Source: Balneolaceae bacterium
GTDB taxonomy: Bacteria; Bacteroidota; Rhodothermia; Balneolales; Balneolaceae
Direction: 5' to 3'
DNA: 47,675 nucleotides
Assembly: GCA_009711805.1 (NCBI GenBank)
Contig: VEMX01000063.1
Span: 1 to 47,675, forward strand
Under the pieces are notes generated by a model. It was not told where the DNA came from, did no database searches, and saw only the letters and a list, made by a program, of their open reading frames with translations. The position numbers and the translations under genes were made by a program. Numbering within the stretch: the first letter of the stretch is position 1; every line of letters begins with the position of its first letter. Of this stretch, positions 28,675-41,343 are shown one piece after another.

Positions 28675-31206
28675 ATGCACTCATACAAACCGGGCGATAT
28701 CGAGACCAAATGGCAAAAGTACTGGCTCGAAAACAAAACGTTTGAAACTCCTACCGATACTTCAAAACCCAAGTATTACGTACTGGACATGTTCCCTTAT
28801 CCAAGTGGAGCAGGACTACATGTGGGGCACCCGGAGGGATATACCGCCACTGATATCATTGCAAGATATAAGCGGATGAATGGTTTTAATGTGTTGCATC
28901 CTATCGGGTGGGATGCTTTTGGCTTGCCTGCCGAGCAGTATGCGGTAAAAACGGGCACCCATCCCCGGACAACCACAGAGAAAAACATTAATAAATTTCG
29001 TGAGCAATTGCAGGCTATTGGTTTCAGTTACGATTGGGATCGCGAGGTGAATACTACCGACCCGGATTACTACAAATGGACACAGTGGATTTTTCTAAAG
29101 CTGTACGAAAAGGGATTGGCCTACGAAGATGAAGTGGCTGTGAACTGGTGTCCCGAATTGGGAACGGTGCTGGCGAATGAGGAAGTGGTGGACGGTAAAA
29201 GTGAAGTGGGTGGCTTTCCGGTGGTTCAGAAACCCATGCGGCAGTGGATGTTGAAGATCACCGAATATGCCGAACAGCTGCTGGAAGAACTGGAAGAGTT
29301 GGACTGGTCAGAGTCGCTGAAGGAGATGCAACGAAACTGGATTGGTAAGTCCATAGGGGCTGAAATCAATTTTGAAGTGTCAGGCTATGACGAACAGATA
29401 AAAGTTTTTACGACCCGCCCCGATACTATTTTTGGAGCTACCTATATGGTACTGGCCCCCGAGCATCACCTGGTAGATAGCATTTCAACAGATGAGCAGA
29501 AGGAAGCCGTTGAAGCTTATAAAGATGAAGCCGCCAAGAAATCCGACCTGGATCGACAGGAACTTTCTAAAGAAAAAACCGGGGTGTTTACCGGGGCCTA
29601 TGCAATTAATCCCGCCAATGGGGAAAAAATCCCCGTTTGGATTGCCGATTATGTGCTGGCAAGTTATGGAACCGGAGCCATTATGGCTGTACCCGGACAG
29701 GATGAACGAGATTGGGAATTTGCCGAAAAATTTGATTTGCCCATCATACGCACGGTACAACCTGATGAAGATTTTGAAGGCAAGGCCTATACCGGTGAGG
29801 GACCGGCCATTAACAGCGGTTTTCTCAACGGATTAAATATTGTTGAAGCCAAGAAGAAAACCATTGAATGGCTGGAAGAGAAAGGAGTTGGAACCAAATC
29901 AGTAAATTATAAACTGCGCGACTGGCTGTTTTCCCGCCAACGTTATTGGGGCGAACCGTTCCCGATTATACATGTGGATGGAGAGCCTAAGCCGCTGCCG
30001 GAGTCTGAGCTCCCGGTTCGCCTTCCGGAAGTGGATAAATATGAACCTACAGGCACCGGTGAACCACCATTGGCCAATGCCAAAGACTGGGTGGAAACCA
30101 CCGATCCCGAAACCGGGAAAAAAGCCATCCGGGAAACCAATACCATGCCGCAGTGGGCAGGTTCCTGCTGGTACTACCTTAGATATATCAGCCCCGATTT
30201 TGATGGAGGTCCGGTAGATCCCGATTATGAAAACTACTGGATGCCGGTAGATCTGTATATAGGGGGAGCCGAACATGCAGTGTTACACTTGTTGTATGCA
30301 CGGTTCTGGCACAAAGTATTGTATGATCTCGGCTTGGTATCAACCAACGAGCCGTTTCAAAAGCTGGTAAACCAGGGGATGATCCTGGGCGAGATGGAAT
30401 ATACCAATGCGGAAGGAGAGAAACTTTCTGACGAGCAGGTGGAAAAAAAGGGTGATGATTTTGTGTTGAAGGGTACTGATACCAAAGTAGAGGCCCGGGC
30501 CCACAAAATGTCGAAGAGCCGGGGCAATGTGATTAATCCCGATCATATCATTGATGAATATGGTGCTGATTCACTAAGGCTGTACGAGATGTTTATGGGA
30601 CCGCTGGAACAGGTAAAACCCTGGAGTACCAAAGGGGTAGAAGGGGTGAACCGGTTCCTGAATCGTGTATGGCGATTGCTGGTTGACGAAGATACCGGAA
30701 AGATTCATTCCAAGGTAAAAGATGTGGAAGCTCAGAAAAAACACTTGAAGCCGTTGCATGAAGCCATCAAAAAAGTAACAGAAGATATTGAAGGGTTGCG
30801 GTTTAATACAGCCATATCCGCACTGATGATTTTTGTGAACGAAGCCAATGGCTGGGATGTAGTTCCGGAATCGGTGGCTAAAAAATTTGTGAAGATACTG
30901 AATCCTTTTGCACCGCATATTACAGAAGAGCTGTGGCGTTTACTCGGCCACGAAGAAACCCTGGCCTACAAGGGCTGGCCGGAGTTCAATGAAGAATACC
31001 TAAAAGAAGATGCTATCACCTATCCCGTTCAGATCAATGGAAAGGTTCGGGCCAATATTTCGGTGCCCGCAGAAAAAGCCAAAGACAAAGACTATGTACT
31101 TGCTATGGCCAAGGAAGAAGAAAAAGTGGCCAAATATATGGCAGATGGTAATCTTGTTAAGGAGATTTTTGTCCCTGGTCGAATCGTAAATTTGGTGGTT
31201 AAGTAG
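28675..31206 (+). CDS. leuS: Leucyl-tRNA synthetase
   Basis: Charges tRNA(Leu). The 843-residue class I synthetase has the HIGH-type motif [12 protein letters not shown] at about residues 49-60 and KMSKS at 611-615 (HKMSKSRGN). The editing domain lies between, with [20 protein letters not shown], followed by the second catalytic half beginning [17 protein letters not shown]. The C-terminal ends in a short GRIVNLVVK tail. Full length; the fragment [11 protein letters not shown] is conserved in bacterial LeuRS. No T-box or other leader structure is evident upstream. Confidence 0.97.
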
Positions 31207-31467
31207 TGATGCCAACCTCCTTCACAAAGAAGAGTGCAAATGGTATGAATTCTACTTTTTAACCTAACCAACGAGTCACTCAGAGCGCAGCTCCCATGGG
31301 GATGCCAATGGCAGAAGAGTCTTCTGGGGATCTGCCCACAATATGATGTGGTATATCTAACCAGGTTTTTCCAACTCAGAGTATTCTACCGGGGCAATGT
31401 CTTAAGCTACTCGTACGTTTGAAGCATATACATATAGCCATCAGCCGAAGTGTGCCAGCCATCAATC
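31207..31467. other. Non-coding gap with copy A of a degenerate repeat
   Basis: No gene is seen. The stretch at about 31246-31345 (AACGAGTCACTCAGAGCGCA, then CCCATGGGGATGCCAATGGC and AGAAGAGTCTTCT) is one of three close copies; the others lie at 35463-35560 and 35761-35850. Confidence 0.6.
31246..31345 (+). repeat. Dispersed 'GAGTCACTCAGAGC' repeat, copy A
   Basis: Matches the copies at 35463-35560 and 35761-35850 over about 80 bp with few differences: AATTCT, a short variable part, then GAGTCACTCAGAGCGCAGCT, CCCATGGGGATGCCAATGGC and AGAAGAGTCTTCT. A fourth, shrunken version (GAGTCACTCAGCGAAGAGTC) lies at about 32228. No reading frame is conserved. Confidence 0.75.
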
Positions 31468-31782
31468 TTATTCCTTGTTGAGTCCCGTTATTTTCTTTAA
31501 TAGTTGAACCGGATCTTGCCTGTTATCCCAAACCAATAATAGTTTAAGGTGTTCGGGGTAGTTTTTGTAGAATAGGGAGACAGATTTATGAACAAGCAAT
31601 TGACGAAACTCACTATTCTTAAAGGTGGGAGCCAGATTAGGATTTCGTTGTATCTGTTCAATACGGTAATCCAATTGATTTAGAAATTCATCAGCTACCT
31701 GTTCGTTCCAAAGCTCCTTTATGAAATTTGTTGTTTCCTGAAGTGATTTCCGGGCTGTTGGAGTCCAGATTACTTTCTTCAT
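31468..31782 (-). CDS. RelE/ParE-family toxin
   Basis: A 104-residue basic protein of the RelE/ParE fold, starting MKKVIWTPTARKSLQETTNF with the usual 'xxWTxxAxxxL' opening, followed by LDYRIEQIQRNPNLAP and a core strand SVSLFYKNYPEHLKLLLVWDNRQDP. Members are either mRNA-cleaving (RelE) or gyrase inhibitors (ParE), which cannot be decided here. Its start overlaps the end of the upstream small gene by 4 bp (ATGA-type coupling at 31779-31782), the standard arrangement for antitoxin-toxin pairs. It lies at the left border of the accessory island. Confidence 0.82.
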   Translation of the reverse strand: MKKVIWTPTARKSLQETTNFIKELWNEQVADEFLNQLDYRIEQIQRNPNLAPTFKNSEFRQLLVHKSVSLFYKNYPEHLKLLLVWDNRQDPVQLLKKITGLNKE

Positions 31783-31988
31783 TGCTCGTTAAGGATAGTA
31801 CGAGAATTGGTGTGCTCGATGCAATCATCAGTATTATCAGAATCCGAAATTTCCAGAAGCTCAGCAATTTCTTTCGGAAGCTTATCCAATGAGGACTGAC
31901 GAAAATCCTCAATCTGATCAATTATACTCTCGTCCTCGAGGTTCGTTATCCAGTTGATAAGGGATATTTTTTTCTGTTCAATTGTCAT
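31779..31988 (-). CDS. Putative antitoxin of the RelE/ParE-type module
   Basis: A 69-residue acidic protein with a helical N-terminus (MTIEQKKISLINWITNLED) and a disordered Asp/Asn-rich C-terminal part that would wrap the toxin. It is unlike the large named antitoxin families. The assignment rests on size, charge and the 4-bp overlap with the toxin gene. The N-terminal region resembles small Bacteroidota addiction-module proteins of the kind found beside ParE toxins. Confidence 0.72.
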   Translation of the reverse strand: MTIEQKKISLINWITNLEDESIIDQIEDFRQSSLDKLPKEIAELLEISDSDNTDDCIEHTNSRTILNEQ

Positions 31989-33149
31989 AGGGTAAAATTA
32001 ATGAATTTCCGATCTGAAGGCAATTGATGTATGTGCCCGGCATGGGTGCCTTTGGTTTACCCTCGTTCCGTAGCTCCACTATCTAACGCTTTTTCCCTGT
32101 TTCGGCGCTCCGCTCTGGAACGTTCTTGCGAGGCTCTGCCTCAAGCTACTAAAGCACGTATGAGCAATATACGAGTTACCAACAGCTAATCTGCAATCGA
32201 AAGATCCCAATATCTTGTAATCAACAGAGTCACTCAGCGAAGAGTCTTCTCATGATTTGCTCATATTTTTTTGATTTTTTGGTCCCGTGACGTAGTCATC
32301 CCCCATGGGAGAAGTTCCAGCTTCCCATGGCTATATGAGCCTATTACCTTGGATGCTACAACACTGGAAGCCAGAGCTTCCATAAGCAGGTCACGCAGCT
32401 GGAGCTACATAACCAAGGCCGAGGGATGGGTGAGCCCCGCGAACCAGCCCGTGGCAGTCTCCTTGTCTATGGCAATTGATGTAATCAGCGTTGAGGTAGA
32501 TCCTAACCATATTTACGAGATCGCCGCGTTGGTGTGGTCACGGGCCTGATTTAAAGTCCCGGGCTCCTTGCCTGCTGAAGACATCCTTGGGGGAGTGAGG
32601 CTCTTTTTAGGATTCTGGCCAGATCTACAACATCAGCGTAACTCAGCGTTTCATCTGCGGGCCTCTGCGAGAAAAGGAAACTGGAAAAAGGTCGGGGGAT
32701 TGGTTCGGGTAGAGTGGTTTCACGCAGATTTTCGCAGAGTAAGGCGCAGAGTTTCGCGGAGGGGGGGATGGGTCTGATGGGTGAGTTCTTTAATGATGGA
32801 TACTGAAGTTGATACACCTGCTCATACAACAACCAGATATCTCAAAATCAACCACTTCTTCTTCCTGGAGCAGCCTGGATAAGGGGTTGCAACCCCTTGC
32901 CGATCGTATCGAGCCTGGAGATTTTCCTTCTACCTCACCATTGGTACTAGTAAAAAATATAAAAGCCCCCTCTGCGAGGGATAGGCTGCATGATCTGGCT
33001 TAACTTACTGCCCATTTTTTATAGCAACTCCACACCTGTCATCATGGACAAACCTGATTCGCGATCTTCCTATTAACACTCCGTATCATATTTAAGGAGA
33101 TGCCGCATCTCCCACTGGTACCTTTAGTTAAGAAATGTCCTCAGATTCA
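31989..33149. other. 1.2-kb non-coding region with decayed repeats
   Basis: No convincing gene. At 32360-32420, GAAGCCAGAGCTTCCATAAG followed by CGCAGCTGGAGCTACATAAC matches 35391-35443. GAGATCGCCGCGTTGGTGTG at 32517-32536 matches GAGATCGCCGCGTCGGCATG at about 35654. At 32719-32762 there are tandem-like CGCAGATTTTCGCAGAGTAAGGCGCAGAG units, a sort commonly seen as intergenic filler in this phylum. The open frames that cross the region look like products of these repeats. Confidence 0.55.
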
Positions 33150-34295
33150 TTATTCAAGTAATGTCAATCTGAATTTTTCTATTACTTCGGCTCCGTTTTT
33201 CCTTAATCGCATATAATAGTACCCATTGTCATCTCTATGCGCAATCATTGGGGGTCTGCCAAGTTCTCCATATCCAAATTTACGCAGGGCAGTATATCCC
33301 ATATGTTCAAATTCTGAATTGAAAAATTCTATTCCCAATTCCCAGCCATAAGAAGTTTTGCCAGTTTTTATTTTTTTCAACAGGAAGTGTATGAGGTAAC
33401 CATCATGGGTAAAAAGTCCTGCATCCTTATAGTTGATTTTTCCATAATAGGAACCATCATAGGTACTTGTAATGTAGGAAGTATCATCTCTCCCGTCATC
33501 TGTAGTTAAGGCTTCATATGCCGGATTGTTCAAGAATAGTTTGTTACCCTTTACTTTTTCTAACTGCCACTCATTATTCTCCCAGGAAAATGCTAATAAC
33601 TCACCTTGATAAATATAAGGGGCTACAATGAAGGTGTTATTTTCTCGTACATATGAACCCAATCTTGATTGGGCCATAAGGCGGGCAAAATTGTCTTTAT
33701 ATCCAAATGCCTCAAATGACCCAAAAGATTCCAACTCCTGGCTGAAATCGGAATTCCAAACATGGAAAATTTCATCCTTATTGAATTTAGCCCATTTCCC
33801 GGCTCCCCATTGTTTGTAGAAAACAATGAAATTCTTTGATTGATATGGTTCAACTTTTCGAAAAAAATTTAAAACCTGAGATCTTTTTGGAGTAATTATT
33901 GTTTTTAAAAGTTCTCCCTCCAAGTTAAAAACAGATATACGAAATTGCATTGGGTCGGCAGCATATAACTTGTTTTCAGACATAAATATATAACTTAATT
34001 CAAGAAATTCGCCAGGCCCACGTCCTCTTCGTCCTATCCTGGATATGAATTTACCTTTGGGATTATACTTACGAATATCCTGAGTGGATGCATCTGCTAC
34101 ATAAATATTACCCTTTGAATCTGTCGTAAAACTTCGAATGTCGCCAAATATGTATTCTAAGGAATCTCCACTATGGTTTCCCAAAGTGCTGTAATCTCCT
34201 AAAACAAATTCTGTTTCAACTGCAGGAGATGGTTGAGCAACTATATTAACGGAGGAAAAAAGTAAAAAAAACAGAAAAATGATTTTTCTATCCAT
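33150..34295 (-). CDS. Exported 6-bladed beta-propeller protein (GRGPGE type)
   Basis: A 381-residue secreted protein with a signal peptide (about 1-20, ending NIVAQ). The body shows propeller blades: GDIRSFTTDSKGNIYVADAS, DIRKYNPKGKFISRIGRRGRG directly followed by PGEFLEL, and LYAADPMQFRISVFNLEGELL. The GRGPGE turn is characteristic of the 6-bladed beta-propeller family (PF17170-like) of Bacteroidota. It has no lipobox. It is last in a minus-strand set: thioredoxin-like gene, Cys-rich peptide, propeller, with gaps of 59 and 73 bp. A similar propeller gene at 37311 is also preceded by a Cys-rich peptide, so the pairing appears twice. Confidence 0.82.
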   Translation of the reverse strand: MDRKIIFLFFLLFSSVNIVAQPSPAVETEFVLGDYSTLGNHSGDSLEYIFGDIRSFTTDSKGNIYVADASTQDIRKYNPKGKFISRIGRRGRGPGEFLELSYIFMSENKLYAADPMQFRISVFNLEGELLKTIITPKRSQVLNFFRKVEPYQSKNFIVFYKQWGAGKWAKFNKDEIFHVWNSDFSQELESFGSFEAFGYKDNFARLMAQSRLGSYVRENNTFIVAPYIYQGELLAFSWENNEWQLEKVKGNKLFLNNPAYEALTTDDGRDDTSYITSTYDGSYYGKINYKDAGLFTHDGYLIHFLLKKIKTGKTSYGWELGIEFFNSEFEHMGYTALRKFGYGELGRPPMIAHRDDNGYYYMRLRKNGAEVIEKFRLTLLE

Positions 34296-34368
34296 AATAA
34301 TAAAATCTATTTGTTATAGTAGAATATAGAGATGCTGATTCGCATCTCTATAAAAATTAATCTTAGAC

Positions 34369-34608
34369 TTATTCTGGCTCACTCCAGCAATAATAACCAG
34401 ATAGATTACAATTATTATGGTTGTCATCATCGCAATCTGTTTTACCAACCTGTGATCCATCCCTATTGACCTTAGTGCATTTTTCTACAGCATCGCAGAG
34501 ATTACAGTCATAAGGATCTCTTACAAGATTATTGGAATATGTAAAAGCTGTACTTATTATAAAAAATAAAGCTGCTAAAAATAGTGCTAAGTTACTTCGT
34601 GTTTTCAT
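34369..34608 (-). CDS. Small exported six-cysteine peptide (type 1)
   Basis: A 79-residue precursor with a signal peptide (about 1-25, hydrophobic LALFLAALFFIISTAFTYS). The mature part of about 54 residues has six Cys in the pattern C-x2-C-x5-C-x14-C-x7-C-x6-C, with GYYC near the end and an acidic DDDNHNN stretch. AGAGG precedes the ATG by about 7 nt. The function is unknown; three disulfides in the periplasm or outside are likely. Part of a second, broken copy of this family lies at 36257-36345 (CTKVKKDGSQVGKTDCDD). The next gene downstream encodes a beta-propeller protein, and a thioredoxin-like protein is encoded upstream. Confidence 0.75.
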   Translation of the reverse strand: MKTRSNLALFLAALFFIISTAFTYSNNLVRDPYDCNLCDAVEKCTKVNRDGSQVGKTDCDDDNHNNCNLSGYYCWSEPE

Positions 34609-34667
34609 GTCTATACCTCTTTTTTTGATTTGTTATTACTACTTTCTCAAAGGTTGGAGTAGTAGTG

Positions 34668-35186
34668 TTATTGTAATTGAACCTCTTCTATAATTTCTTT
34701 CTTATAGTCTAATCTTGTAACCATATTACTTATTAGTTTAACTTTATAGACAATTTTATTTTTATCCATATCCAAAAATATTAACTCATTATTTCTTTCA
34801 CGTAGTACAAGAGGTAAACCAGATTCCTTAAATAAATGATATTCTGAATCATATTTAATTAAGTTCATATGCCTTTCCACATTTCCAGAATCAGCGTTAA
34901 CAAATATTAAATAATGAGGTATTTCAGTGTCAGTAAGTAATGAAATATAGTCGATTGTATTATTAATACATGGAGAACAAGAAGTTGTCTTAACAAAAAA
35001 TAAAGCCACTAGGTCATCACTGCTTCCCCTATTTTTTAAAAACTCTGGTAAATTATTTTTTTCAAAATTTGTATTAATTTTTTCACCATGTAGAGAATAT
35101 TGGGAAGATGGACGACTGAATACCAATATGCATATCGCTGCTATTGTTAATGCAAGTGCCAATATATATTTATTATTTTTACTCAT
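34668..35186 (-). CDS. Membrane-anchored thioredoxin-like protein with CSPC motif
   Basis: A 172-residue protein with one N-terminal membrane helix (about 7-24) and a thioredoxin-like domain facing the periplasm. LVALFFVKTTSCSPCINNTI holds the redox CxxC at Cys70 and Cys73, and SGLPLVLRERNNELIF contains the Pro expected opposite the active site. It is first in the minus-strand set with the six-Cys peptide and propeller, so oxidation or isomerisation of that peptide is an attractive but unproved role. A (TA)13 tract ends 8 bp before the ATG, just ahead of the ribosome-binding AAGGA. Confidence 0.75.
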   Translation of the reverse strand: MSKNNKYILALALTIAAICILVFSRPSSQYSLHGEKINTNFEKNNLPEFLKNRGSSDDLVALFFVKTTSCSPCINNTIDYISLLTDTEIPHYLIFVNADSGNVERHMNLIKYDSEYHLFKESGLPLVLRERNNELIFLDMDKNKIVYKVKLISNMVTRLDYKKEIIEEVQLQ

Positions 35187-35194
35187 ATCCTTAT

Positions 35195-35220
35195 TATATA
35201 TATATATATATATATATATA
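35195..35220. repeat. (TA)13 dinucleotide tract upstream of the thioredoxin-like gene
   Basis: Thirteen uninterrupted TA units lie between the ATG at 35186 and AT-rich upstream sequence on the minus strand. Only the AAGGA ribosome-binding site separates them from the start. Slippage in such a tract would change the spacing of promoter or leader elements without affecting the coding frame. Confidence 0.9.
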
Positions 35221-35283
35221 ATTTAATTGTCAATAAGAATAGATTTTATTCTTGTCCTCAAGAAAGAAGAGTAAGGACTAAAT

Positions 35284-35460
35284 GCACAAGGTATTTGTCG
35301 GGAGGATGGGATTAGCAATGTCACCTTTTACAACTGGAAAGCTAAGTAAAGTGGGGCAAGAGGTGGGGAGCAGGCTCGAGTCAAAGAACTCGAAGCCAGA
35401 GTTTCCGGAAACGGGTTACGCAGCCGGAACTACAAAACCAGGAGAAACAATATCGCCAGG
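35284..35460 (+). pseudogene. Decayed IS3-family OrfA (transposase HTH) fragment
   Basis: Translated from 35284 in the plus direction it reads AQGICREDGISNVTFYNWKAK, then a stop at 35347-35349, then SGARGGEQARVKELEAR. This matches the conserved helix-turn-helix and leucine-zipper part of IS3-type OrfA (REHGISxATFYxWKxKYGGM followed by a KELExEN zipper). The start, the end and OrfB are missing and the frame is broken. It ends where the degenerate repeat copy B begins. Confidence 0.65.
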
Positions 35461-35462
35461 GT

Positions 35463-35560
35463 AAATTCTATCTTCTAACCAGCGAGTCACTCAGAGCGCA
35501 GCTCCCGTGGGGATGCCAATGACAGAAGAGTCTTCTTAGGATCTACCCGTATTCCATTTC
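35463..35560 (+). repeat. Dispersed 'GAGTCACTCAGAGC' repeat, copy B
   Basis: Nearly identical to 31246-31345 and 35761-35850 across AGTCACTCAGAGCGCAGCTC, GGGGATGCCAATGACAGAAG and AGTCTTCTTAGGATCTACCC. It follows directly after the IS3 relic; the preceding ATATCGCCAGGGTAAATTCT also matches copy C, so the unit extends about 25 bp upstream. Confidence 0.75.
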
Positions 35561-35760
35561 ATTCGCATTCCCAAAATCTGGTTTCCTGCGGCAGCCATCT
35601 TGTTTAGGTAACCAACATGGGGAGCGTTGATACATATCCCAAACCTATGTAGGGAGATCGCCGCGTCGGCATGGTACCAGGCCTTAGCCATTGGCTTCGG
35701 CTCCTCGCGAAAGGGAGTCTTTCATTTTGAGTAAGCAGTTGAAAAGATATCACCAGGGTG

Positions 35761-35850
35761 AATTCTGCCTTTCAACCAACAAGTCACTCAGAGCATAGCT
35801 CCCATGGGGATGCCAATGGCAGAAGAGTCTTCTTAGGATTTATCCACAGT
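35761..35850 (+). repeat. Dispersed 'GAGTCACTCAGAGC' repeat, copy C
   Basis: Third close copy, with AAGTCACTCAGAGCATAGCT, CCCATGGGGATGCCAATGGC and AGAAGAGTCTTCTTAGGATT. It lies just left of the duplicated gltA terminator. Confidence 0.75.
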
Positions 35851-35909
35851 TTATTTTGTTGTGTTTAGGAATGAGTTAAACCCTTCCCAGATAGAAAGAA
35901 GAAATCCAC

Positions 35910-35943
35910 AAAAAAGCCCGATTGATGAAACACCAATCGGGCT
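35910..35943 (-). terminator. Terminator of the truncated gltA copy
   Basis: The perfect 10-bp stem AGCCCGATTG / CAATCGGGCT (35915-35943) is followed on the minus strand by a T run. It is the duplicate of the hairpin downstream of intact gltA, where one stem pair is broken. Confidence 0.8.
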
Positions 35944-35974
35944 GATGAAGAGCTAATTTCTTCGGTACTCATAA

Positions 35975-36256
35975 TTATCGGTCTTCAACCGGAACCCAAT
36001 CCAGGTTCTTTTCTCCAACATATAATGCGCGTGGACGGATTAGTCGGTTGTTGGCTGCTTGTTCCATGTAGTGGCCGGTCCATCCGGAAACACGGCTCAT
36101 GGTGAAAATACAAGTAAATAAATCCGGCTCAATACCAATGGAATAATATACGGTAGCGGAGAAGAAATCCACATTCGGATCAATATCCTTTTCCTCCTTC
36201 ATGGTATTCAGTATAGCCATCGACCATTCATACAGTCGCTCATGGCCGGTTTCTTC
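35975..36256 (-). pseudogene. gltA: Duplicated 3' end of the citrate synthase gene
   Basis: This is a perfect copy of the last 94 codons or so of intact gltA; the identity runs from 35943 to 36256 against 40127 to 40440 (offset 4184). It begins at codons EETGHERLYEW and runs to the normal stop and terminator. Upstream of the break the frame continues into a fragment of a Cys-rich peptide gene, giving ...DYC-EETGHER..., so the junction is in frame. There is no upstream start, and the N-terminal catalytic half is missing, so no enzyme is made. Confidence 0.9.
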
Positions 36257-36345
36257 GCAGTAATCACGGCCTTCATCATCGCAGTCTGTTTTACCAACCT
36301 GTGATCCATCCTTTTTGACCTTAGTGCATTTATTTGTAGCAATTC
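36257..36345 (-). pseudogene. Fragment of a Cys-rich peptide gene fused to the gltA fragment
   Basis: On the minus strand the frame reads NKCTKVKKDGSQVGKTDCDD then EGRDYC, matching CTKVNRDGSQVGKTDCDDDN of the peptide encoded at 34369-34608. The part encoding the signal peptide is missing and a stop lies in frame about 20 codons upstream with no ATG in between. It is therefore a relic of a fourth six-Cys peptide gene. Confidence 0.75.
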
Positions 36346-36691
36346 CAGTTTTCTTTAAGAGAATTGTAACAATTCTTTATCAAGTGACTCATTATATAAA
36401 AGTTAAATATTGGGCTTAGGGCTATTTTTGTAATAGCAATAGCAAGTTAAAACTTCATATGTAATGTATTTTACTTCTATGTGAATTCTATTCATTTAAT
36501 CAGTTATAAGCCTGATTGTGGGGATTGATCTAAATTAACTCATGCAATAACTGTAGGGAGTTATAATAATGGTGCTAGCCAACATAATATCGTTACAATG
36601 ATTCTAGCTATGTTATAGTTCGGCAAATTAGATAGAGGATTTTAACACCTAAAAAACATCCCGTAATAGTGAAAGTAAATAAAAATTGATT
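36346..36691. other. AT-rich non-coding region before the LuxR-type regulator
   Basis: No gene is seen. The inverted repeat ATAACT-GTAGGG-AGTTAT at 36547-36564, and a looser AACATA / TATGTT pair at about 36581 and 36613, are possible operator sites for the downstream regulator. This stretch probably carries the promoter of the plus-strand peptide cluster. Confidence 0.4.
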
Positions 36692-36949
36692 ATGGAAAGG
36701 GTAATAGTTTCAATTGAGTATTTAAACGCACTAAATAAGTTGACGCCGAGAGAATGCGAAATATTAGAGTATGTATATCGGGGGTGCACAAGCCGAGAAA
36801 TCGGAGAAAAGTTGTACTTAAGTTCTGGTACAGTAAGTAACCACCGTCAATCTATATGTGATAAACTCAATATAAATGGTTATAGGGGCTTGTATAAATG
36901 GTGTGCAATAAATAGAACTCGTAAACAGTACACACTTAAACAATATTAA
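36692..36949 (+). CDS. Stand-alone LuxR-type helix-turn-helix regulator
   Basis: A protein of about 85 residues that is essentially one LuxR/GerE DNA-binding domain: LTPRECEILEYVYRGCTSRE, then IGEKLYLSSGTVSNHRQSIC (recognition helix), then DKLNINGYRGLYKW. There is no receiver or ligand-binding domain. The ATG at 36692 is preferred over an in-frame TTG two codons upstream. It lies 81 bp before the first peptide gene of the plus-strand cluster, with the same orientation, and is the likely local regulator; what it senses cannot be read from the sequence. Confidence 0.8.
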   Translation: MERVIVSIEYLNALNKLTPRECEILEYVYRGCTSREIGEKLYLSSGTVSNHRQSICDKLNINGYRGLYKWCAINRTRKQYTLKQY

Positions 36950-37030
36950 TTATACATACTATATTATGTAGGTTCTGCACTTGATGATAAATAATTTGTT
37001 TTACACATTTTAAATGTTAATCAAAATCAA

Positions 37031-37303
37031 ATGAAAAATAGAACCATGAAAAAGCTTACAAAAATTCTACTTATGACCTGCATTATTAGTTTAGTGGGCT
37101 TAGCAAAACCAATCTTTTCACAATGCGAGAGTGGGGGCAGAGGGGCCAGCGAATGTTCTTACACATTTAGTAGTCCTAGATTCTTTGGATTATGGACTGT
37201 GGAGACTACTCACAGTGTTTCATGTGGTGAAGATATGTATGCATGTTGTACAAAAAATGGAGCAGGCTGTGTATTTAATCGACCTACATTTGTACAAGCA
37301 TAG
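37031..37303 (+). CDS. Small exported six-cysteine peptide (type 2, GG-GAS)
   Basis: A 90-residue precursor. Two near-N-terminal Met are possible (MKNRTMKKLTK), and a signal peptide follows (ILLMTCIISLVGLAKPIFSQ). The mature part of about 60 residues has the pattern C-x9-C-x22-C-x6-CC-x6-C with CESGGRGASEC, HSVSCGEDMYACC and GAGC. The peptide encoded at 38614 shares the same spacing and words, so they are paralogues. The function is unknown. It is followed after 7 bp by a beta-propeller lipoprotein gene, implying translational coupling and a joint job. Confidence 0.78.
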   Translation: MKNRTMKKLTKILLMTCIISLVGLAKPIFSQCESGGRGASECSYTFSSPRFFGLWTVETTHSVSCGEDMYACCTKNGAGCVFNRPTFVQA

Positions 37304-37310
37304 TATAAAT

Positions 37311-38567
37311 ATGAGGATGTTTCTGAAACAAGATATAGAATTGAGTGTTAAATACACTACTACCTCACTGTTTTTAGGCAATCGAGTATCATTATTTGTA
37401 TTTATAATTTTGTTTGCATGTAGTTGTCAAGAATCTGGTGTGAATAAAAAAATCGTAAAATCGCAAGATGGATACTTAATACATCCTGTAAGTCCTGAAA
37501 ACACTGTGGTTTTAAGTTCTAACCAGTTAAGTGACCTGAAGTTTATTCCTTTAGAAGCAACTGATAATTCTTATGTGACAGATATAGCTAAATTAGAGAG
37601 AGATACAACAACAGGATTTTGGTACATATTAGATAGAAATAATCCGAGTGTTATCTGTGTATTTAATGGGGAGGGTAAATTTATAAAGAACATAAAATAT
37701 TTAGGTCGAGGGCCTGGTGAATACCAAAGAATTAATGATTTTTATATCTCAGACGGGAATTGGATTGAATTTTTGGAGGGTGAAACTCAAAAGATTATCC
37801 GATATGACTTAAAAAATGACTCACTGATAACAGAAAAGAAGATACCATTTTATGCTTATAATTATTCCTATTTAGAGAATGGTAACTACGTGTTTTACAA
37901 AAACAGCCAAGCTAAAAATCAAGAAGATGAGAAATATTTTTATAGATTATTAGTAACAGATACTGATTTTAATCTCATACGTACTGGATTACCTTTTGAA
38001 CTTGAATTAGGTGTGAATATTTCAATAATGAATCCAAATGCGCTTACTAGAACTTCAGGTGGGTTAACTTTCAATCAATTCAATGCTGATACTCTATATT
38101 CTATATACGAAGACACAATTAAAATCAATCATGTTTTAGATTTTGGGGATTATGTTGTGCCAGATCCTGATGATATGGAATTTTCTTCGGGTAGTGAAAA
38201 ACTGAGATATTACTTTAGCAAAACTGATAAGCATATCATTGGGGTTCATCAAATAAAAGAAACAAAAGATTTTTTCAGCTTCAATTTTATATATAATGAT
38301 GATGCATTTTTATATATGTATGATAAAACCAGCAATGACTATTTCGTTGCAAGCAGAATAGATTTTAATGATAAAAATGTATTTTTTCCTCCTCCAGTAA
38401 ATTATTTAGATTCAACATTTATAAGCATATATACTGTGGATATGCTTAACGAAAAGGTTTCAATTGATAATTTGGATATAAATAATCAATACGAAAAATC
38501 ATTAGCATATGGAATCGAATATCAGAACCCTGTTTTAGTGACATATAAAATAAATCCTAATCAATAA
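37311..38567 (+). CDS. 6-bladed beta-propeller lipoprotein (GRGPGE type)
   Basis: About 418 residues counted from the ATG at 37311. The frame is open further upstream to 37131, but that part overlaps the peptide gene in another frame and lacks a signal. From 37311 a hydrophobic segment is followed by a lipobox (FACSCQES), which fixes the start. Blades include FWYILDRNNPSVICVFNGEG, then KFIKNIKYLGRGPGEYQRIN with the GRGPGE signature, and YDLKNDSLITEKKIPFYAYN. It is a distant relative of the propeller encoded at 33150, which also sits beside a Cys-rich peptide. The likely role is binding at the outer membrane or periplasm; the ligand is unknown, and the adjacent peptide is a candidate. Confidence 0.82.
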   Translation: MRMFLKQDIELSVKYTTTSLFLGNRVSLFVFIILFACSCQESGVNKKIVKSQDGYLIHPVSPENTVVLSSNQLSDLKFIPLEATDNSYVTDIAKLERDTTTGFWYILDRNNPSVICVFNGEGKFIKNIKYLGRGPGEYQRINDFYISDGNWIEFLEGETQKIIRYDLKNDSLITEKKIPFYAYNYSYLENGNYVFYKNSQAKNQEDEKYFYRLLVTDTDFNLIRTGLPFELELGVNISIMNPNALTRTSGGLTFNQFNADTLYSIYEDTIKINHVLDFGDYVVPDPDDMEFSSGSEKLRYYFSKTDKHIIGVHQIKETKDFFSFNFIYNDDAFLYMYDKTSNDYFVASRIDFNDKNVFFPPPVNYLDSTFISIYTVDMLNEKVSIDNLDINNQYEKSLAYGIEYQNPVLVTYKINPNQ

Positions 38568-38613
38568 GTATATCTTTTAATCTTAAGGTGTACAGAAAAT
38601 TAAATAAGTTATT

Positions 38614-38970
38614 ATGAGACTCTCTAAATTTATTGTTTTCATTTTAAGTTTGGTCATTGTGGCATTATTTACAGATCCAATTTACGCAGACTGTAAGACA
38701 GGTGGAGTAGGTGCTAGCAGTTGCGCCTATTCAAAAACCGAGTATATTTGGTTTATTATACCGATTACCACTGAAACTAGTGTGTCATGTGGAAGTGGGT
38801 ATTACGCTTGCTGTACAGGAGAAAGTGCAATGTGTAACCGAAACGGTACTTCAGAGCCAGATAGTGGACCAAATGTTAGATTAGCGTCTAAAGCTGAAGA
38901 AAGTGATGAGTTCAACGGAATTTATACTTTACTTCCTGCTATCCGTGTGTTTTTTTTATTTAGACTCTAA
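38614..38970 (+). CDS. Small exported six-cysteine peptide (type 2) with C-terminal extension
   Basis: A 118-residue precursor with a signal peptide (about 1-25, ending PIYA). The Cys-rich part follows the same pattern as the 37031 peptide: C-x9-C-x21-C-x6-CC-x6-C with CKTGGVGASSC, TSVSCGSGYYACC and SAMC. A tail of about 45 residues (acidic, then hydrophobic: IYTLLPAIRVFFLFRL) is not shared and could be a membrane-associating end or the result of a shifted stop. It lies 46 bp after the propeller lipoprotein gene and in the same direction. Confidence 0.75.
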   Translation: MRLSKFIVFILSLVIVALFTDPIYADCKTGGVGASSCAYSKTEYIWFIIPITTETSVSCGSGYYACCTGESAMCNRNGTSEPDSGPNVRLASKAEESDEFNGIYTLLPAIRVFFLFRL

Positions 38971-39015
38971 TGATTAGTATGTATAGAATTAAAAAGTGAA
39001 TCTATCAATAAATTT

Positions 39016-39762
39016 ATGTCAAGGTTACATTTTATATTTTTGATGTTATTCTTTCTATTTTCTTGCCAAGAAAATGTAAAAGAGGAGAACAGGTCGGAAT
39101 TGTATAATACTCAAGTTGAGACTGATTCAACTTTGTTTATTCTGGTTGAGGATGATTTTGAAGCAGTATTAAAGAGAAAAAATGATAATTCAAGGGGAAT
39201 GAGTAACGGGCCTAATCTTTGGCAAAGATCGGGTTCGCTTCCCAGCATATTGTCAGAGCTGTACACTCAACCATTGGATATAGAAAATAATCCGAATCCC
39301 AGAGCTACATATAGTCTGAAGATCACCTGGAATGAAGCTACTACCCTAGAGAACATTCGTGCTAAAGTAAGCTATAAATTAGAAGAAACCTTCAGCTATA
39401 CCATTGAATCAAAAATACGTCAGCAACAATCACACCGGATGTTGATAAGTGATGCATCATTCTTGAATAGTATGAATGAAGGTAATCCTGTTGGTGAAGA
39501 TACAGAGTCAAAGCTCATAATTGATAATTATAATTGGGAATACTATGGCACTTTAATAGGGCTAGCTGATTTGATTACTGAAAAAACCGGCCGGAGAATA
39601 ATAACTGAAAATGAAGTAAAAGTTGATACTGAAAAATACTACTTCGAATTAACCGCTGAAAGCGGTTTTGAAGGCTTAGCTAAACAGCTGGAAGTAAACT
39701 ATGGAATTGTATTCGAAGAGGTAACAGTGTCCATGGAATTTTTAGTAATCGATTTTGAGTGA
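39016..39762 (+). CDS. DUF3738-like lipoprotein
   Basis: A 248-residue lipoprotein with lipobox LFSCQ (Cys at about residue 17). The C-terminal part (GLADLITEKTGRRII, ITENEVKVDTEKYYFEL, then AKQLEVNYGIVFEEV and MEFLVIDFE) resembles DUF3738/TIGR03435 proteins, with the usual 'strand - short peptide-binding-like region - VID' ending. That family often occurs beside thioredoxin-like genes in Bacteroidota. The N-terminal half is not recognised. It is the last gene of the plus-strand cluster, 45 bp after the second peptide gene. Confidence 0.55.
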   Translation: MSRLHFIFLMLFFLFSCQENVKEENRSELYNTQVETDSTLFILVEDDFEAVLKRKNDNSRGMSNGPNLWQRSGSLPSILSELYTQPLDIENNPNPRATYSLKITWNEATTLENIRAKVSYKLEETFSYTIESKIRQQQSHRMLISDASFLNSMNEGNPVGEDTESKLIIDNYNWEYYGTLIGLADLITEKTGRRIITENEVKVDTEKYYFELTAESGFEGLAKQLEVNYGIVFEEVTVSMEFLVIDFE

Positions 39763-40093
39763 GCGATTCGTGATTCTCACTTCGGCAATATGATGAATAA
39801 AATGATTTCTTTACCTTCTTTATTTCTAACTATATTCTTTTAATCCAATGTTTTAAGGAATTGAGTGAGAAATATTGTTACAAGTGTATAAACTTCGTAT
39901 TTAGATGAAATTCTTCGCTTTCCAACAGACACACTTTTCTGGTAAGTACCTATTTAAACTTAGGCTCCTCGCGTGCCGTAGACACCCCCGCGGGGAATGA
40001 GGGACTTTCATATCATATTTTATTTGTGGTTTATGGGAGTGGGCTGATTTTTTTTCAAATTTAAAGAAGGAAATAGACACAAAAGAAATTCAC
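39763..40093. other. Non-coding gap between the island and gltA
   Basis: No gene is seen. GGCTCCTCGCG near 39963 followed by GGACTTTCAT echoes 35698-35730, to the left of the truncated gltA copy. The duplicated segment therefore once reached further than the part that is still identical. Confidence 0.5.
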
Positions 40094-40127
40094 AAAAAAA
40101 GCCCGATTGATAAATACCAATCGGGGT
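40094..40127 (-). terminator. Terminator of intact gltA
   Basis: AGCCCGATTG / CAATCGGGGT with a short loop and a T run on the minus strand. One pair of the stem is mismatched, unlike the duplicate at 35910-35943. Confidence 0.75.
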
Positions 40128-40158
40128 GATGAAGAGCTAATTTCTTCGGTACTCATAA

Positions 40159-41331
40159 TTATCGGTCTTCAACCGGAACCCAATCCAGGTTCTTTTCTCC
40201 AACATATAATGCGCGTGGACGGATTAGTCGGTTGTTGGCTGCTTGTTCCATGTAGTGGCCGGTCCATCCGGAAACACGGCTCATGGTGAAAATACAAGTA
40301 AATAAATCCGGCTCAATACCAATGGAATAATATACGGTAGCGGAGAAGAAATCCACATTCGGATCAATATCCTTTTCCTCCTTCATGGTATTCAGTATAG
40401 CCATCGACCATTCATACAGTCGCTCATGGCCGGTTTCTTCAGAGAGAGCCTTCGACATCTTTTGCAGATGGTAAGCACGTGGATCAAATACTTTGTAAAC
40501 CCGGTGCCCAAAGCCCATAATTTTTTCCTTGCTCTCGAGCCGTTGTCTAGTCAGTTCAACAGGATCAGCATCAGTGCCATGTTCCTTTTCCATATCCAGC
40601 AGGGTATTCATTACCGCTGTGTTGGCACCTCCGTGCAGCGGGCCTTTCAGTGCCCCTATGGCTCCTGTAACTCCGGAATAAATATCTGATTCAGTAGCAC
40701 AGATAGTTCGGCAGGTAAAGGTAGAAGCATTCATGCCATGTTCTGCATGTAATACCAGGCAGAGATTCATAGTTTTTTCAGCTTGTTCACCCGGTTTTTC
40801 GCCATTCAACATATACAAAAAGTTGAATGCAGTGCTGCCTTCGTTCAGTGGTTCTACAATATTTTTTCCTTTTCTCGAACGATCGAAGGCTGCAATTATC
40901 GTTGGAATTTTTGCAGTAATGGCAATGGCCTGATCCATAAACAGGGATTCATCAAATTTCCCTTTTGTTTCATCAGAATCAGCCAGCATAGAAACCGCTG
41001 TTCTCAATACCGCCATTGGTTCCGCACCCTTATCAGTAGACTTTATATATTCGAGGACAGGCCCGGGGAGTGTGCGATGTTCAATTAATGAATTCTTTAA
41101 ATCTTCCAGTTCCTGAGCATTTGGCAGGCGGTCATTCCAAAGAAGAAAACAAACTTCTTCAAATGTAGCATGTTCTGCCAATGTATCAATATTATATCCG
41201 GAATATATAAGTTCGCCCTTTTGACCGTCGATTGAGCTTTTTGTTGTAGAGAAGGCAATGATTCCGGCAAGTCCCTTATTAATGTAAGGATATTGCTGCT
41301 CATCAAATCCGGTATGAACACCTTTTGACAT
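40159..41331 (-). CDS. gltA: Citrate synthase
   Basis: Condenses acetyl-CoA and oxaloacetate to citrate at the entry of the TCA cycle. About 390 residues of the short bacterial type. Active-site stretches are LHAEHGMNASTFTCR (His), GPLHGGANTAVM (His) and DVDFFSATVYYSIG-like VDFFSATVYYSIGI (Asp). GFGHRVYKVFDPRA is the CoA/oxaloacetate loop. An ATG at 41343 is also in frame, but GGAG lies 5 nt before the ATG at 41331, giving MSKGVHTGF as the more likely start. The 3' 282 bp is duplicated at 35975-36256. It is monocistronic. Confidence 0.95.
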   Translation of the reverse strand: MSKGVHTGFDEQQYPYINKGLAGIIAFSTTKSSIDGQKGELIYSGYNIDTLAEHATFEEVCFLLWNDRLPNAQELEDLKNSLIEHRTLPGPVLEYIKSTDKGAEPMAVLRTAVSMLADSDETKGKFDESLFMDQAIAITAKIPTIIAAFDRSRKGKNIVEPLNEGSTAFNFLYMLNGEKPGEQAEKTMNLCLVLHAEHGMNASTFTCRTICATESDIYSGVTGAIGALKGPLHGGANTAVMNTLLDMEKEHGTDADPVELTRQRLESKEKIMGFGHRVYKVFDPRAYHLQKMSKALSEETGHERLYEWSMAILNTMKEEKDIDPNVDFFSATVYYSIGIEPDLFTCIFTMSRVSGWTGHYMEQAANNRLIRPRALYVGEKNLDWVPVEDR

Positions 41332-41343
41332 TAGTACTCCCAT

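Follow-up and report, generated by a model that had tools for sequence, protein, structure and literature searches.

Exported cysteine-rich peptides encoded with six-bladed beta-propellers in a Balneolaceae genome and in other Bacteroidota

What would a bacterium do with small exported peptides, rich in cysteine, whose genes lie next to those of six-bladed beta-propellers? The question is raised by an island, positions 33150 to 39762, within a 47,675-nucleotide stretch of DNA (contig VEMX01000063.1 of a Balneolaceae bacterium, GenBank assembly GCA_009711805.1); this stretch, at its full length, is called the window below. A first-pass annotation made from the letters alone had described in it three six-Cys peptides, two propellers, a CSPC protein, a LuxR-type helix-turn-helix (HTH) regulator, and a broken fourth peptide gene, and all of these were found where it had placed them. 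The island holds two copies of a module that consists of a small exported peptide with 4 to 8 cysteines encoded with a six-bladed propeller. The pattern is wider than that annotation saw, being genome-wide and phylum-wide and including MauE, S26 signal peptidases, and upstream repeat tracts. The explanation we prefer, which we regard as evenly balanced between being right and being wrong, is phase-switched export of a disulfide-bonded peptide to which its own propeller binds; the purpose would most likely be antagonism or recognition between bacteria.

Pairing of peptides and propellers across the genome

The genome comprises 4.08 Mb, and we examined the surroundings of all 48 of its matches to the propeller family DUF5128 (PF17170), to which the two window propellers belong with 50.1 and 127.3 bits against a curated cut-off of 22.9. 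As a candidate peptide we accepted any short open reading frame (ORF) outside larger ORFs that had a hydrophobic leader and at least 4 mature cysteines. The 330 kb around the propellers yielded 22 such candidates, and 400 kb of control DNA without propellers yielded 3. The three from the control are doubtful (two have TTG starts, and none looks like a Cys-rich domain preceded by a signal peptide), and by this criterion the 400 kb contained no credible gene for an exported Cys-rich peptide. On the same strand and within 1.5 kb, mostly 3 to 116 bp upstream, a Cys-rich exported peptide accompanies 22 of the 48 propeller genes. Given that cysteine accounts for only 0.66% of residues in the large ORFs of this genome, and given the 22 candidates against 3, Cys-rich peptides beside propellers exceed chance. 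The peptide-propeller module is thus well supported.

Some loci were set aside. L040, L041, L042, and L044 (loci are cited by our L labels and genomes by our G labels) had no credible peptide, and L055-L057, which came from the genome scan, were motif matches within unrelated larger proteins and had no propeller.

Conservation in other Bacteroidota

The plus-strand cluster of the island (36692-39762), which encodes peptides 2 and 3 (Table 1), recurs together with its gene adjacency in Balneolales, Algoriphagus, and Cyclobacteriaceae. The peptide family itself is rare: in a phylum sample of 296 genomes, which was also the sample for NVEALA, matches at E <=0.01 were found in four, two of these being weak and with stops. 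Convincing relatives of peptides 2 and 3 are present in G305 (two copies), G056, G052, Algoriphagus marinus, and a Cyclobacteriaceae metagenome-assembled genome. Conserved adjacency was the check that the first-pass annotation had proposed for its pairing, and the pairing passed it, with every convincing relative elsewhere adjoining a propeller.

G305, a member of the same family, has a LuxR HTH, two peptides, a propeller, and a lipoprotein in nearly the order of the window. The propellers of the two are 46% identical, the HTH proteins 43%, and the lipoproteins 29% (E 7e-38). The description of this lipoprotein as DUF3738-like is best regarded as borderline, the G305 orthologue scoring 21.9 bits against a cut-off of 22. 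The other four genomes have the order peptide, then propeller. In G052 the peptide gene (L058, from 5926 onwards) has an in-frame stop in its leader region, after MKTKLLTFALL, and is either affected by a sequencing error or a decayed copy. Beyond this family, unrelated Cys-rich exported peptides lie upstream of propellers in L080, L081, L082, L085, L086, L088, L093, and L105 of the wider sample, and such a peptide is also present in L095.

The parallel with Bacteroides that the first-pass annotation had drawn is borne out. In G273, the one NVEALA-positive genome among the 296, all six NVEALA genes adjoin a propeller, which where scanned is of the DUF5128, TolB_like, or DUF4221 type; one of these clusters also encodes an S26 peptidase (1.8e-29). 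A Phocaeicola vulgatus plasmid is likewise annotated with an NVEALA-propeller pair. The modules described here thus resemble the NVEALA (PF14055)-propeller pairs of Bacteroidaceae in placing the gene for a small exported peptide immediately before a propeller gene and in occurring in several copies. They differ in that the peptides lack the NVEALA leader and in that the G273 loci showed neither CxxC proteins nor long TA tracts. In the open-access literature, which was the scope of our search (subscription literature and preprints lay outside it), no paper contained the word NVEALA and none described peptide-propeller modules.

Peptide sequences and predicted structures

Peptides 2 and 3 are paralogues with 38% identity. 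They have in common the pattern C-x9-C-x21/22-C-x6-CC-x6-C together with GGxGAS and SVSCG motifs, as first noted from the sequence; no conserved tryptophan was found in their family. When 27 peptides were forced into one alignment, the cysteines alone persisted, and no peptide reached the cut-off of a Pfam or NCBIfam family, 27 having been scanned against Pfam. Peptide 1 reached 18.4 bits for DUF6520 (PF20130), below the cut-off of 25.4. Membership in NVEALA was ruled out: its hidden Markov model (HMM), leader included, matched nothing in the genome studied here (G000) and none of the 27 peptides, in agreement with the first-pass remark that these sequences are of another kind. A C-terminal P-x(0,1)-[DE] occurs in 10 of 24 peptides and in 2 of 298 ordinary genes, a comparison that is descriptive because the ending had been noticed before it was tested.

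Two paralogues in L007 give some indication of how the peptides evolve. They are near-identical over roughly 65 bp ahead of the start codon and across the leader, and identical over the last 28 bp (CYYCEDPE). Between these constant ends their cores have diverged (Ks 0.68, Ka 0.21), which suggests that the peptide core is exchanged or changes rapidly. Positive selection on the mature peptides was considered and rejected, Ka/Ks being below 1 where measurable.

An AlphaFold2 model of leaderless peptide 2, built from eight sequences only, has two beta-hairpins (pLDDT 85, pTM 0.61). No solved structure resembling it was found, with no Foldseek match below E 1.9 and no VIA-align Z of at least 2. A function could therefore not be assigned by fold, the model being fairly confident yet without a structural neighbor. 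A knottin or cystine-knot identity was rejected (the best profile match was asteropsin B at E 4.7, and there was no fold match), as was homology to the methylamine dehydrogenase light chain, an idea prompted by the SxSC...CC...C spacing, for which neither Protein Data Bank (PDB) profiles nor folds gave support. The model of the plus-strand propeller (pLDDT 81.6, pTM 0.80) has by far its best fold match in 4raa (BF0058 of B. fragilis; E 8e-22), which was deposited as a putative exported protein; the next Foldseek matches are NHL and BtuG-like propellers.

Redox helpers and signal peptidases

Membrane-anchored CxxC proteins are encoded at about ten of the module loci of this genome. The CSPC protein of the window had been called thioredoxin-like, a description based on its motif and on its equivalents at sister loci, which match Redoxin or Thioredoxin_8 (L007 and L025; Redoxin at 4e-9 in L007); the window copy itself has no significant Pfam match. 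MauE (PF07291) adjoins the peptide of L034 in what is the sole strong MauE match of the genome, and no MauE homologue is present at the window loci. In other families of the phylum, MauE occurs twice in tandem by a peptide-propeller pair (L120; 1.2e-20 and 4e-23), and L097 has it close to a propeller. Of the three S26 signal peptidases in the genome studied here, one is LepB and the other two are encoded within module loci (L025 and L034).

MauE and MauD are needed for the maturation of methylamine dehydrogenase (PMC7794033), and it has been suggested that MauE makes the disulfides of the enzyme's Cys-rich small subunit. With these precedents, and with CxxC and MauE helpers sharing loci with the peptides, the peptides likely contain disulfide bonds. 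The same source describes decRiPPter families of Streptomyces in which MauE, once with MauD, lies beside a precursor with at least 8 cysteines, and modification of the precursor is suggested (PMC7794033). Those families differ from the modules here in being actinobacterial and in that the passages on them mention no propeller, while the peptides described here have Sec-type signal peptides.

Two other gene types were seen in or near such loci. An ABC transporter ATPase and its likely membrane partner, possibly a dedicated exporter, follow a two-peptide propeller locus (L024, 4861-6358), and DUF1573 genes lie in or near peptide-propeller clusters of two distant genomes (L121, 7155-7541, 1.2e-24; L116, 11185-11535, by motif only).

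Repeat tracts upstream of the modules

Six (TA)n runs of at least 12 bp lie near propellers, and none lies in the control DNA. The whole genome has six sites with (TA)8 or longer, and all six precede the leading gene of a module by 9 to 59 bp (window 35195-35220, L003, L010, L016, L025, and L032). With about 24 modules and an assumed 3500 upstream regions, the chance of this placement is about 1e-13. Homopolymers are found at the same upstream distance in L031 and L037 (A10/A15), and relatives have repeats of several kinds upstream of their peptide genes: (TA)10 in L058, (AATTC)21 in L085, A43 in L095, C10 in L082, and T12 in L052. In L058, TTGACT and TATAAT flank the TA tract, and a manual count gives a spacer of 15 bases between them. 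No repeat tract accompanies the plus-strand cluster of the window, which has a LuxR-type HTH instead.

In Haemophilus influenzae, hifA/hifB are known to be switched by changes in a TA repeat that lies between promoter elements, and the tracts described here resemble these contingency promoters in being TA dinucleotide tracts at promoter distance from genes for exported products (PMC3899988). The difference is that switching of the modules is a prediction from sequence and that no promoter type is established for Balneolota. A consensus promoter scan of the window gave sites no more frequently than shuffled sequence did, and we claim no promoter from it. Because all six TA tracts lie upstream of modules and other repeats take this place in relatives, the modules are quite probably phase-variable through their upstream repeats. 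Separately, G010 has an (AT)17 tract (L108, 1010-1043) and an ATTTGGA repeat (713-740) ahead of a propeller gene that is an orphan.

Proposed mechanism and its alternatives

The mechanism that we propose would run as follows. Transcription of some modules would be switched by slippage in the repeat tracts just upstream, as at 35195-35220. Sec would export the peptide, and its leader would be cut by LepB or, at some loci, by the S26 signal peptidase encoded there. In the periplasm, the cysteines would be oxidized with the aid of the CxxC protein and, at some loci, of MauE. The folded peptide would then be bound by the propeller of the adjacent gene, a lipoprotein or exported protein, a step that we consider more likely than not. 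The role would most likely be antagonism or kin recognition: other cells would be the target of the peptide, and the propeller would serve for self-protection or as a display partner. An interaction between cells is favored because of the rarity and diversity of the peptide families, the remnants, the tandem unlike copies, and the repeat-bearing promoter regions.

The sole functional lead toward antagonism is BfUbb, which points that way because it is antibacterial and is encoded beside propeller genes. This secreted protein is specified by a variable locus of B. fragilis 638R beside divergent beta-propeller genes (PMC5705921). The resemblance lies in a small, signal peptidase I-exported protein in a hypervariable locus with beta-propeller genes, of which the BfUbb locus has one truncated, and with a direct-repeat element; in other strains, a HigBA toxin-antitoxin pair lies beside the propeller genes of that region, and the window has a ParE-type toxin near the island. 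BfUbb itself, unlike the peptides here, is a ubiquitin homologue and not a Cys-rich peptide. As a role, antagonism or kin recognition ranks first in our assessment, ahead of a complex like methylamine dehydrogenase and then of signaling, but it remains a tentative assignment that falls short of an even chance.

Several points weigh against the preferred explanation. For about half of the propellers no peptide was detected, and these proteins therefore also have other roles. Tandem unlike peptides precede a single propeller in L022, L024, L047, and L121, which argues against strict one-to-one pairing. Mature-region Ka/Ks values, where measurable, lie well below 1, with no clear sign of positive selection. 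The (TA)n tracts accompany only six of about 22 modules, and in the family as a whole such tracts are not confined to them: of seven other (TA)8 tracts in 58 genomes, only two precede propeller genes. MauE and S26 are each present in few loci, and the propellers of the BfUbb locus may be of another family.

The first alternative is a periplasmic or surface complex of two subunits like methylamine dehydrogenase, in which the propeller would be the large subunit and the peptide its obligate small subunit, oxidized in the manner of MauD and MauE, with an enzymatic or binding role and no antagonism. A propeller, a Cys-rich exported small protein, a CxxC protein, and MauE occur together at some loci much as in the system of that enzyme (MauA, MauB, MauD, and MauE), which MauE and MauD mature (PMC7794033). 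The propellers here, however, are six-bladed DUF5128 proteins rather than the Mau large subunit, and neither the profile nor the model of the peptide matches the light chain. The conserved tryptophan pair of subunits with tryptophan tryptophylquinone (TTQ) is missing from the peptide 2/3 family. The peptides are also extremely diverse, with unlike duplicates at times before one propeller, and phase-variable repeats would be unusual for a housekeeping enzyme, so that we consider such a complex unlikely. A secreted signal with its receptor (the peptide as pheromone, the propeller as surface receptor, and the LuxR-type HTH in the response) would account for the one-domain LuxR HTH that opens the plus-strand cluster both here and in G305, and tandem diverged peptides would suit a specificity system; but the regulator is missing from nearly all other modules, and no membrane signaling protein (TonB-dependent transducer, anti-sigma factor, or histidine kinase) recurs in the loci as listed, which makes signaling rather improbable.

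A role in metal or cofactor handling, with secreted metallophore-like Cys proteins captured in loaded form by the propellers, seems more improbable again. It would suit Cys-rich peptides accompanied by lipoprotein propellers, and structurally related surface propellers of Bacteroides bind cobalamin (BtuG and BT1954 are among the Foldseek matches). The likeness to BtuG is weak, though (query-normalized TM 0.33-0.36); the Cys spacing varies between families with no common metal-site motif, and CxxC and MauE helpers suit disulfides rather than free thiols. Finally, Cys-rich ORFs beside propellers could have no functional link to them and simply hitch-hike in islands of unusual genes. The window cluster does lie in a recombination-prone area, as indicated by the duplicated citrate synthase 3' end and the intergenic repeats that bound it. 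Yet the tight same-strand spacing holds in 22 loci on many contigs, and the gene order is conserved in other families of the phylum with none of these peptides elsewhere in the sampled DNA; hitch-hiking is accordingly hard to credit.

A broader proposal is that phase-switched peptides with cognate propellers form a previously unrecognized, phylum-wide class of weapons or recognition systems, consisting of hypervariable disulfide peptides matured by MauE or CxxC proteins and sometimes by a dedicated signal peptidase, with gut NVEALA and perhaps the BfUbb locus as branches. We consider this generalization doubtful. Should the proposed mechanism hold, a function and a partner would be gained for many Bacteroidota genes whose annotation stops at "6-bladed beta-propeller" or "NVEALA domain-containing protein", and likewise for short peptide genes that are often left unannotated. 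The mechanism also predicts that the disulfide peptides are made by only a fraction of the cells in a population, which would account for their having escaped notice. The role of the propellers would be testable with small synthetic peptides, and a new layer of strain competition could be revealed in gut Bacteroidaceae, where NVEALA-propeller pairs are also plasmid-borne.

Layout of the window

The two divergent clusters (Table 1) sit between leuS (28675-31206, plus strand) and citrate synthase (40159-41343, minus strand). The minus-strand operon has the order CSPC protein, peptide 1, and DUF5128 propeller.

Table 1. Features of the island and the evidence for each
Feature	Position	Strand	Basis
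CSPC redox-like protein, membrane-anchored or periplasmic; proposed disulfide-forming helper	34668-35186	-	Motif; sequence FVKTTSCSPCINN
Peptide 1, exported, six mature Cys, C-terminal SEPE	34369-34608	-	ORF; DUF6520-like below cut-off
Six-bladed DUF5128 beta-propeller carrying a signal peptide, paired with peptide 1	33150-34295	-	DUF5128 E 2.9e-13
Remnant of a fourth, peptide-1-like gene	36258-36341	-	Sequence identity to peptide 1
Single-domain LuxR/GerE HTH regulator	36692-36949	+	HMM E 2.4e-15
Peptide 2, exported, six Cys, C-x9-C-x22-C-x6-CC-x6-C	37031-37303	+	ORF and motif
Six-bladed beta-propeller lipoprotein (DUF5128)	about 37311-38567	+	DUF5128 E 9.5e-37
Peptide 3, of the same family as peptide 2	38614-38970	+	38% identity to peptide 2
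Borderline DUF3738-like lipoprotein, conserved as the final gene of the plus-strand cluster	39016-39762	+	G305 gene at equivalent place
(TA)13 tract directly ahead of the minus-strand operon, with TTGACA 7 nt before the tract	35195-35220	-	Proposed phase-variable promoter

The broken fourth peptide gene is genuine: the 84-nt piece is 83% identical to peptide 1 and still reads CTKVKKDGSQVGKTDCDD. It is joined to a copy of the citrate synthase 3' end. This 3' end is duplicated together with its terminator (35899-36257 and 40083-40440; 359 bp, 98.6% identity), and because the copies flank the plus-strand cluster, they suggest that the cluster came in by recombination at the citrate synthase site.

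Between leuS and the island, the ParE-type toxin mentioned above (PF05016, 29.6 bits) is encoded at 31471-31988 on the minus strand, and the small gene upstream of it is probably its antitoxin. Intergenic repeats of approximately 75 to 124 bp lie at 31225-31348, 35436-35559, 35733-35856, and about 32400-32950, and further parts of 31200-33149 reappear in the intergenic DNA of many other contigs.

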